A DNA stretch of 64,000 bases from Chloracidobacterium sp. (lineage in GTDB: Bacteria; Acidobacteriota; Blastocatellia; Chloracidobacteriales; Chloracidobacteriaceae), in contig JANWUV010000008.1 in assembly GCA_025057975.1 (NCBI GenBank), forward strand, positions 124,001 to 188,000, written 5' to 3'. The notes under the pieces are model-generated. The model did no database searches and was not told where the DNA came from. It saw nothing but the letters and a program-made list of their open reading frames with translations. The position numbers were made by a program, and so were the translations under genes. Positions 48,044-51,916 of this stretch are shown here, one piece after another. Position 1 is the first letter of the stretch. The number at the start of each line of letters is the position of its first letter.

Positions 48044-48245
48044 GGTCGTTGAAGTTTGAGAAAGCCGTAGAGTCCCGCGTTTGAGTGCAGAGGGCGCAGC
48101 CAATCGCTTCAGGCATTGGAAGAAACATCAAGTGTAGAGCATCTTCCGTGTCTCGAACACGCGACGGAGCAGGTAGTCGCCCACCCACGAATCGGCCTCG
48201 ATCTCCGCGTTGCACTCGACCGTCGGCTATGTCATCCATGCGCAT

Positions 48246-50246
48246 ATGACTGACCGCCGCTTTTACGTTACGACGCCGATTTACTACGTCAATGCGCGTC
48301 CGCACTTGGGGCATCTCTACACAACGCTGCTGGCTGACACGCTGGCGCGGCATTATCGCCAACGCGGGTTTGAGACCTTTTTCCTTACCGGAACGGACGA
48401 GCACGGCCTCAACATCGAGCGCGCTGCCGCCGCCGCTGGATGTCCGGTCAAAGACTACGTGGATGCTGTCGTTGCCGAGTTCAAGGCGACGTTCGCTGCT
48501 TTCGGACTAGAGCCAGACGATTGGATTCGAACCACCGACGACGCCCACATTCAAGGGGCGCAGGTGCTGTGGCGACGGGTGCGCGACCGTGGCTACATTT
48601 ACAAGGGACACTACGAAGGCTGGTATTGCTCAAGTTGCAACGAATTCAAAGACGAAACGACGCCGGGCGAAGCGCCGGTGTGCGACATTCACCTGCGTCC
48701 GACCGAACGTGTGGCGGAAGAAAGCTACTTCTTCAAACTGTCGGCTTTCCGTGACCGTCTCTTGTCTTTCTACGCCGAGCATCCCGACGCGATTCAACCT
48801 GACGCACGCCGCAACGAAGTCGTCAGTTTTGTCTCCGCCAATCTGCGTGACCTTTCCATCAGCCGTGTTTCGGTCAAGTGGGGCATCCCCGTACCGGACG
48901 ACCCGGCGCACACGATGTATGTCTGGTTTGACGCGCTCTCGAACTACATCACGGCGCTCGGCTTCGGCAACAACGCCCGGACGGGGTTCGATAAGTTCTG
49001 GCCGCATGTCCTGCATCTTGTCGGCAAGGATATCCTGCGCTTTCACGCCGTTTACTGGCCGGCATTCTTAATGGCGGCTGAACTGCCGCCGCCGCGCCGC
49101 GTCTTCTCGCACGGGATGTGGTTGTCGGGCGGGCGGAAGATGTCGAAAACGCCTGACGCAAGCGGACGCTCGAACGCCATTGACCTTGCCGTGTTGCGCC
49201 GCTACTTCTCCAATGATGTCGTCCGATATTTCTGCCTGCGCGAAATGGCCTACGGCCAAGACGGCGACTTCACCTACGAAGCCCTCATTGATCGCGCCAA
49301 CGGCGACCTTGCCTCCGGCTTCGGCAACTTGGCCAGCCGCACGCTGACGCTGATTCGGAAGGCGTTCGGCGGCGTCGCGCCGAATGTGCCGCCGGACGCG
49401 CCGGCGGACGCCCGTGAAGCGGCAGCGGCCATCGCCGAGCGGTTCATCGCACAACGGGCTGCGTTTCTGGCGCACGTCGAGCGTTTGGCGCTCAGTCGCG
49501 CCCTGGAGTCCGCTTGGGAGTTGGTCGCCTTGCTGGACAAGTACCTGAGCGACACTACGCCGTGGAAGCTGATCGGCGATCCCGAAGCCCGGCCGCGATT
49601 GGCGACGATCCTCCACACGGCGGCCGAAGGCCTGCGGCATTTGACCGTTTGGCTGTATCCGTTTTTGCCGGAAGCGACGACGACGCTCTGGACACGGTTG
49701 GGACTGCCCGGCCGACCGGCGCAGGTTGCCCCAGAGAGCCTGACATGGCAGCGTTTTGAAAACGCCGTTGTCGGCGACGGCCCGGCGCTTTTCCCGCGAT
49801 TGGATAAGACAACCATCATGAACGACATCGAAGCAACAACTCAGCCGACCGCTGCCCCGCCTGCGAACCCGGCTTCATCCGCCGCGCCGGAAGCGCCGGC
49901 CGCGTCGGAAACCGGCTACATCACAATTGACGACTTCGCCAAAGTCGAGCTGCGGGTCGGGCAGGTGCTGGAAGCCGAGCGCGTGCCGAAAGCGGATAAG
50001 CTTCTGCGCCTCCAGGTGGATGTCGGTGAAGCGACGCCGCGCCAGATTCTCGCCGGCATCGCGCAGTACTACGCCCCGGAAACGCTCATCGGACGGAAAA
50101 TCGTTGTGGTGACGAATCTTGCGCCGCGCAAGCTGCGGGGCTTGGAGTCAAACGGGATGCTGCTGGCGGCCTCGGTCGGCGAACAGGGACGCCCCGTCAT
50201 TGCGACCTTTACCGAAGACGTACCCAACGGCGCGCGGCTCAAATGA
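48246..50246 (+). CDS. metG: Methionyl-tRNA synthetase with C-terminal tRNA-binding domain
   Basis: Charges tRNA-Met. YVTTPIYYVNARPHLGHLYTT holds the HIGH motif (HLGH, residues about 19-22), KMSKTPDASG is the KMSKS loop near 300, and CSSC...CDIH supply zinc-type ligands near 130-150. After an Ala/Pro-rich linker (about 530-560), residues about 565-666 form an OB-fold EMAP/Trbp111 domain (DFAKVELRVGQVLEAERVPKADKLLRLQVD). 666 aa from the ATG at 48246. Confidence 0.97.
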   Translation: MTDRRFYVTTPIYYVNARPHLGHLYTTLLADTLARHYRQRGFETFFLTGTDEHGLNIERAAAAAGCPVKDYVDAVVAEFKATFAAFGLEPDDWIRTTDDAHIQGAQVLWRRVRDRGYIYKGHYEGWYCSSCNEFKDETTPGEAPVCDIHLRPTERVAEESYFFKLSAFRDRLLSFYAEHPDAIQPDARRNEVVSFVSANLRDLSISRVSVKWGIPVPDDPAHTMYVWFDALSNYITALGFGNNARTGFDKFWPHVLHLVGKDILRFHAVYWPAFLMAAELPPPRRVFSHGMWLSGGRKMSKTPDASGRSNAIDLAVLRRYFSNDVVRYFCLREMAYGQDGDFTYEALIDRANGDLASGFGNLASRTLTLIRKAFGGVAPNVPPDAPADAREAAAAIAERFIAQRAAFLAHVERLALSRALESAWELVALLDKYLSDTTPWKLIGDPEARPRLATILHTAAEGLRHLTVWLYPFLPEATTTLWTRLGLPGRPAQVAPESLTWQRFENAVVGDGPALFPRLDKTTIMNDIEATTQPTAAPPANPASSAAPEAPAASETGYITIDDFAKVELRVGQVLEAERVPKADKLLRLQVDVGEATPRQILAGIAQYYAPETLIGRKIVVVTNLAPRKLRGLESNGMLLAASVGEQGRPVIATFTEDVPNGARLK

Positions 50247-50286
50247 GCGTGCCGGGTAAAAAAATAAAAACGGAGTATAGGCATGA

Positions 50287-50499
50287 GAGCAGAGGTTCAC
50301 AGCGATGATAGAGCCGGCGCCGGAAGGCGGCTATTGGGCTTACTGCGCCGAAATTCCCGGCGCGAATGGATAACGCGAAGGCGCGTCTCACACTGTTTGG
50401 ATTAATCCACGGGACGGTCATATCGAGGCCGTTCCCTGTCAGGCAGAAATCAAAGATAACTTAGCGAAAAAGATACTGAAGAAGCTTGACGCAGAGTGA
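50287..50499 (+). pseudogene. Fused remnant of a hicB-hicA toxin-antitoxin pair
   Basis: In one reading frame, the stretch IEPAPEGGYWAYCAEIPGA is followed by NG, a TAA stop (50371-50373) and, after R-E-G, ASHTVWINPRDGHIEAVP continuing to KILKKLDAE and a TGA at 50497. The first half is the N-terminal strand and the Pro-Glu-Ile-Pro-Gly turn of HicB antitoxins; the second is the C-terminal half of HicA with its catalytic Gly-x-x-His. The HicB C-terminus and HicA N-terminus are gone, so an internal deletion has joined the two. The result cannot make a complete toxin or antitoxin. Translation of the upstream 50247-50286 and downstream 50500-50644 parts shows nothing else. Confidence 0.75.
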
Positions 50500-50644
50500 C
50501 GTTGATGAGAACCAGCCACACTCTGCCGACACTGTCATGAGGCTGTCCCACGGCTCGACATTGCTTTCGGACGGCCTCTGGATGACTCTTCTGTAAAGCA
50601 AAAGCATAGAAAACTATCTGAACCATTTGACGAGGCGCACCGCG

Positions 50645-51916
50645 ATGCAGACGAAGCTGCTAACGAAACGCTTTGACAGGCCGGACTCACAGAGTATCCG
50701 CTCGTATTTGGCCGACGGCGGCTATGCAGGCTTAAGAAAGGCCCTGACGGCGATGCAGCCGTCTGACATCATCGAGGAAGTCAAGAAGTCCGCCCTACGC
50801 GGGCGTGGCGGCGCGGGCTTTCCGACCGGCATGAAGTGGGGCTTCGTACCAGTCAACTCTCCAAAGCCGAAATACGTTGTGTGCAACGCCGACGAGAGCG
50901 AGCCGGGGACGTGCAAAGACCGCGAACTCATGGAGAAGGACCCGCACCAACTCATCGAGGGTTTGCTCATCGCCGCTTACGCGCTGCTGTCCAAACAGGT
51001 GTTCATCTACATTCGCGGCGAGTACTGGTACTTGATTGAGATTCTCGAACGCGCCATCGCCGAAGCGCGTGAACACGGCTTTGTCGGCAAACGCATCTGT
51101 GGGACGGATTTCGAGTGTGAGATTGTCGTCCATCCGGGCGCCGGGGCGTATATCTGCGGCGAAGAAACCGCGTTGCTCAACTCGCTGGAAGGCTATCGCG
51201 GGCATCCGCGCATCAAGCCGCCGTTCCCAGCCGTCGCCGGCCTTTATGGCTGTCCAACAGTTGTTAACAACGTCGAGACGTTCTGCGCTGTGCCGCACAT
51301 CGTCGTCAACGGCGGCGACTGGTATCGCGCTTTGGGGACAGAAAAATCCGGTGGCACGAAAATCTTTTCCGTTAGTGGGCACGTCAACCGGCCTGGTAAC
51401 TATGAAGTCCGGCTAGGCTACCCGCTGAAGCAGCTGATTGAGGAGGAAGCTGGCGGCGTCCGCGGCGGGCGCAAACTCAAGGCGGTCATTCCAGGTGGGT
51501 CGTCAGTGCCGATTCTGACGGCGGAAGAGGTCGAAAATGCGACGCTTGATTATGAAGGCATGATGAAAGCTGGCTCAATGCTGGGGTCAGGCGGCGTCAT
51601 CGTCATGGATGAGGCAACCGACATCTTTATGACAACCTACAATCTGATTCGATTCTACAATCATGAGTCCTGCGGCTGGTGCACGCCGTGCCGGGAAGGG
51701 ACGGATTGGTTGCTCAAGCTCTTCAAGAAAATTGCGCGTGGCGAGGGGACAACGGCCGACCTCGATACCATCAAGCGGCTGTGCCCAAACATTGAAGGGC
51801 GGTCACACTGTCCACTGGGCGATGCGGCGGTGTGGCCCATCACAAGCGCGATGAAGAAGTTCCCGGAGGACTTTCTCAAGCATGTGAAGCCGGTCGCCGC
51901 GCCAGCGGCGGCTTGA
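50645..51916 (+). CDS. nuoF: NADH-quinone oxidoreductase subunit F
   Basis: The NADH- and FMN-binding subunit of complex I, with the N3 4Fe-4S cluster. GRGGAGFPTGMKWGF is near residue 57, CNADESEPGTCKDRE near 85, GAGAYICGEETALLNSLEG near 170, and the cluster block ESCGWCTPCREGT near 338 with the fourth Cys in GRSHCPLGD. 423 aa from the ATG at 50645, preceded by GAGG. No nuoE, nuoG or membrane subunits adjoin it; a formate-dehydrogenase or hydrogenase diaphorase role is possible. Its stop overlaps the gmhB start. Confidence 0.93.
   Translation: MQTKLLTKRFDRPDSQSIRSYLADGGYAGLRKALTAMQPSDIIEEVKKSALRGRGGAGFPTGMKWGFVPVNSPKPKYVVCNADESEPGTCKDRELMEKDPHQLIEGLLIAAYALLSKQVFIYIRGEYWYLIEILERAIAEAREHGFVGKRICGTDFECEIVVHPGAGAYICGEETALLNSLEGYRGHPRIKPPFPAVAGLYGCPTVVNNVETFCAVPHIVVNGGDWYRALGTEKSGGTKIFSVSGHVNRPGNYEVRLGYPLKQLIEEEAGGVRGGRKLKAVIPGGSSVPILTAEEVENATLDYEGMMKAGSMLGSGGVIVMDEATDIFMTTYNLIRFYNHESCGWCTPCREGTDWLLKLFKKIARGEGTTADLDTIKRLCPNIEGRSHCPLGDAAVWPITSAMKKFPEDFLKHVKPVAAPAAA

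Follow-up and report, generated by a model that had tools for sequence, protein, structure and literature searches.

The 64-kb window, by which we mean the whole stretch of DNA analysed, belongs to a draft genome of Chloracidobacterium sp. (3.52 Mb, 86 contigs). Between the housekeeping genes metG and nuoF it carries what are almost certainly the remains of two small genes, laid out as follows:

48210..50246, forward strand: metG, methionine--tRNA ligase, the left flank, start codon not settled (NCBIfam NF008900, 740.9 bits)
50283..50285, forward strand: ATG, likely the old hicB start codon, read from the sequence and one base out of the hicB frame
50287..50370, forward strand: hicB relic, 28 N-terminal codons (HicB profile positions 2-29 of 71, 29.3 bits)
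50371..50373, forward strand: TAA, with the deletion junction at or beside it (in the profile alignments the HicB Gln codon of PGANGQG or the HicA residue before R-E-G)
50374..50499, forward strand: hicA relic, 41 C-terminal codons and a stop (HicA profile positions 18-59 of 64, 50.5 bits)
50500..50644, forward strand: remaining spacer before nuoF, with no recognisable content in Pfam, plasmid and Rfam searches
50645..51916, forward strand: nuoF, NADH-quinone oxidoreductase subunit F, the right flank (TIGR01959, 635 bits; ATG at 50645)

Translated in frame 1 of the forward strand, 50287-50499 gives 28 residues, a TAA, 41 residues and a TGA, and a GGAG stretch and an ATG lie 5' of the hicB part. 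An earlier note on this DNA had described the start of a HicB and the end of a HicA standing in one frame with a single TAA between them, and both the description and its coordinates are right.

Behind these remains, positions 50500-50640 hold an open frame, about 55 codons long, that runs into nuoF; its best non-self match (E 0.052) provides no convincing relative, and genus mates hold no counterpart of the stretch except for a short part adjoining nuoF. No Pfam family exceeded its cut-off over 50500-50644 in five of six frames tried, and plasmid sequences gave no match to the same interval. The sole Rfam match in the spacer, to SAM-SAH at 15.4 bits against a gathering score of 40, is taken as chance.

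Used alone as a query, the HicA half finds matches in 60 of 396 genomes sampled from the phylum, the window's own included, and its best non-self match in that sample reaches 56% identity at E 3.0e-10. The search returned 25 loci, one being the window itself, and the other 24 were read. A small HicB with a PGAN-Q-G-like motif lies directly upstream of hicA in 22 of the 24 (the motif was not shown upstream in L160 and L164), a count in which intactness was not checked for every pair: the HicB start of L163 was not seen, and L168 has no usual HicA start. The HicA proteins of these relatives have about 60-66 residues. The Gln codon of the HicB motif is CAA or CAG in all 22 pairs and stands 179-195 nt from the HicA R-E-G (once R-Q-G), the distance being 179 bases in 15 of them and 185, 186, 188 (twice), 193 and 195 (twice) in the others; in the window it is 0. 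hicB and hicA differ in frame in 19 of the 22 pairs.

Subfamily profiles were made from 24 relatives for HicA and 22 for HicB and searched against six-frame translations of the window in which stops were read as X. In this test, which is not fully independent, given that the window's own HicA half served to collect the HicA relatives, that the HicB partners were selected by a motif chosen after the window had been seen, and that the HicB set includes three front-shortened entries (L157, L163, L170), each profile has a single clear match in the 64 kb: HicA at E 1.5e-15 and 50.5 bits (next best E 0.89), HicB at E 6.7e-9 and 29.3 bits (next best E 0.14). Across 1000 dinucleotide-shuffled versions of the metG-nuoF spacer, the highest scores were 14.0 bits for HicA and 5.8 bits for HicB. 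The homology of the second half to HicA thus follows from its profile score together with the identity to its relatives, and that of the first half to HicB (PF15919 / PF21748) from the subfamily profile.

Curated models behave differently. Pfam HicA_toxin (PF07927) gives the second half 15.7 bits (E 0.017), below its cut-off of 27, Pfam has no HicB match to the first half, and NCBIfam matches neither. This weak result may be explained in part by the subfamily itself, since one of the two subfamily pairs scanned, L154, also stays below every cut-off (HicA 24.2, HicB_lk 17.4 and UPF0150 22.3 bits); the other, L166, passes for HicA (34.1) and UPF0150 (32.2), with HicB_lk at 23.1 below the cut-off. 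The earlier note had made its reading hang on both halves matching HicA and HicB profiles: formally the curated models go against it, but the subfamily profiles bear it out. Among PDB entries the HicB half recovers two HicB antitoxins at E 0.31-0.32, amid unrelated proteins at 0.39-4.8. The HicA half matches eight designed repeat proteins (Cake) there with E down to 1.6e-9, and these are taken as chance, because E adds up over the repeats and no single stretch passes by itself. A search of plasmids gave one match for the HicA half (Gemmatirosa, 46%, E 8e-4) and none for the HicB half.

The TAA joining the halves does lie at or beside the junction, but it is not a neutral spacer: it falls both on HicB profile position 29, the Q of PGANGQ, and on HicA profile position 18, which is mostly K. 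It is probably the old HicB Gln codon, and could alternatively derive from the Lys codon that precedes R-E-G in HicA; a TAG-GGC in the same-genus genome G002 favours the Gln origin without settling between Gln and the HicA residue. Because the Gln codon and R-E-G touch in the window and are separated in the relatives, some 180-195 bases are missing. As the two genes are so often in different frames in the relatives, the frame shared by the remainders most simply results from the deletion, an outcome to be expected of one random deletion in three. A slip at GCGAA, a string that can be common to the HicB G-Q-G-E and HicA R-E-G codons (as in L166), is not supported at the junction, the base before GCGAA in the window belonging to a HicA codon.

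Both proteins are truncated at this one junction, as the earlier note stated, but the damage extends further. A complete HicB reading frame is absent: besides the stop after 28 codons, the frame is lost just behind the likely start, the ATG at 50283 being out of frame with the rest. Many relatives have M and three residues before F-T, which fits the window given one extra base, and such an insertion is what we infer. The HicA domain lacks about its first 18 profile positions, and the P-R-H motif of 23 of the 24 HicA relatives reads P-C-Q (counted by eye), so this half is altered beyond truncation. The His common to all 24 HicA relatives, which we take to be the catalytic His, is still present, in agreement with the earlier note.

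Further hicA loci were seen in the same genome. At L172 (G000:C4:231900-233200) a second broken hicA, its HicA part at C4:232360-232494, scores 25.2 bits, under the cut-off, with a TGA inside the match and what looks by eye like a change of frame close to the end; an open hicB comes next and narrowly misses its cut-off (HicB_lk 26.0 bits). At L173 (G000:C2:251300-252500) a hicB (HicB_lk 48.4 bits) precedes a hicA whose match starts only at profile position 15 and whose front stands, by eye, in another frame; upstream lie a Phd/YefM-like match, weak at 15.7 bits and short of the cut-off, and a small frame without a Pfam match, which to the eye begins like a PIN toxin and then breaks off. The hicB-hicA pair at L174 (G000:C10:3200-4100) is open by eye (HicA 76.5 bits, HicB 26.5 bits). 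Should these readings of L172 and L173 be right, broken copies make up three of the four hicA loci seen in the window's genome.

Chloracidobacterium has two chromosomes, and three of the same-genus genomes consist of two contigs each, the larger of 2.64-2.68 Mb and the smaller, in G001, of 1.01 Mb. A NuoF search of genome contigs kept 80 loci (the best at 67%), which play no part in the comparison of the site. metG and nuoF adjoin in all six same-genus genomes found, with spacers of 168 nt in G004, 144 in G003, 143 in G002, 65 in G001, 62 in G006 and 61 in G005, against 398 in the window. The earlier note had proposed looking here for an intact pair; all six relatives proved negative, so that none of the seven same-genus genomes, the window's included, has an intact hicB-hicA pair at the site. 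Window positions 50311-50372 align to the G002 spacer with a score of 62, reached by none of 1000 shuffles (maximum 38), and positions 50311-50359 to the G004 spacer with a score of 34, reached by 5 of 1000 (maximum 36). The G003 score of 30 is reached by 30 of 1000 shuffles, and hicB likeness is not claimed for it; in the alignments, the spacers of G001, G005 and G006 (61-65 nt) hold nothing like the window's hicB stretch.

Judged by DNA likeness to the window, the one basis for their hicB identity and a weak one for G004, it seems that a worn stretch resembling the window's hicB part survives in G002 and, with less certainty, in G004. Neither stretch matches the HicA or HicB profiles (HicB 0.4 bits or less). 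G002 and G004 align with each other at a score of 51, reached by none of 1000 shuffles; this alignment covers their whole spacers and was set aside as hicB evidence. The G002 TAG falls on the window TAA in two alignments, in one by its first two bases only and in the other under MAFFT; the G004 TAG is nearby, outside the TAA column of the MAFFT alignment. Single-base gaps break the frame between the window and G002, and no ATG precedes the like stretch in the G002 or G004 spacer. No HicA remainder was found in either spacer: compared with the window's hicA part, the sequence after the TAG scores no better than 929 of 2000 shuffles in G002 and 121 of 2000 in G004, and compared with the rest of the window's spacer it aligns only over a short stretch by nuoF (22 and 26 of 2000 shuffles, respectively). 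HicA_toxin matches are absent throughout the genomes of G002, G003 and G004. A tree of the metG and nuoF flanking DNA (939 columns) groups the window with G002 and G004 at 80/87, a moderate support below the tree program's mark of good support.

Among the 14 classes into which HicA loci have been sorted (PMC10865869), Class 2 comprises small hicBA pairs whose HicB has no DNA-binding domain and Class 12 fused small HicBA proteins; the same paper mentions that pseudogenes may stem from a stop codon truncating hicB. The relic resembles Class 2, as described there, in its B-A order, which 22 of its 24 relatives share, in the small HicB of those relatives and in the match of both halves to them. 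The back of the relic's own HicB is missing, and two relatives scanned with Pfam show no DNA-binding domain. The relic differs from Class 2 in that its genes are truncated, joined and interrupted, with no product expected. With Class 12 it has in common that its HicB and HicA parts share a frame, but it does not comprise two whole domains and has a stop between its parts. A literature search on Chloracidobacterium toxin-antitoxin systems listed one paper, an unrelated one, and we do not claim that the relic is absent from print.

The shared frame and the B-A order would also suit a broken fused HicBA gene of Class 12 in place of a scar of two separate genes, but we regard this as very improbable, given that in the window HicB lacks its back and HicA its front, and that 22 of the 24 relatives are separate neighbouring genes, mostly in different frames. 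Slighter still is the likelihood that the old hicB now yields a short working leader or peptide whose stop is kept on purpose. Such a product could account for the MAFFT placement of the G002 TAG on the window TAA and for the GGAG stretch and ATG before the hicB part; against it, the single-base gaps in the G002 alignment destroy the frame, the ATG is wanting in G002 and G004, the G004 TAG lies off the TAA column, and the G001, G005 and G006 spacers have nothing alike. That an intact module is hidden by an assembly error we consider scarcely credible: although the genome is a draft, the like stretch occurs at the same site in other assemblies, in G002 and more weakly in G004, and the lesions are several and separate.

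The interval is thus almost certainly a decayed Class 2-like hicB-hicA toxin-antitoxin operon whose middle has been deleted. A small operon with HicB first would once have stood between metG and nuoF in the ancestor of the window's species, and probably also in that of two sister species; such a past module, already proposed in the earlier note, is supported by the subfamily profiles and by the gene pairs of the relatives. The deletion would have run from about the 29th hicB codon to about the 18th hicA codon, leaving two remainders in one frame, and the stop codon at the join and the frame break behind the hicB start would have added to the damage; neither a working antitoxin nor a working toxin is expected. 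Both the ancestral state at the site, for which none of the six relatives offers an intact pair, and the order of events in the decay are what we infer. Most simply, the module arrived once, before the species of the window, G002 and G004 split, and then decayed in each. The module probably came from elsewhere, as the 60 genomes matching the HicA half include none of G001 to G009, the other members of the window's family; G001, G005, G006, G007 and G009 are the family members among the genomes listed as searched without a match.

It is tempting to ask whether G002, and perhaps G004, share with the window a stop in the HicB Gln codon that is older than the window's deletion. On that view truncation of the antitoxin would have come first and loss of the front of the toxin gene in this lineage second, and the toxin would already have been inactive, silent or tolerated. 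We hold this order of events to be unlikely, because the G004 TAG lies off the TAA column and the TAA may have a Lys origin.

The earlier observation is confirmed as real, and its reading is supported in the main. What it records is ordinary pseudogene decay, an ordinary gene fossil, and the relic alone changes little. It does show that decayed genes of this sort can escape curated family models. It also offers a readable example of toxin-antitoxin decay in a spacer between housekeeping genes, one or two sister species having a worn form and others short spacers, and would be useful to a survey of toxin-antitoxin loss.
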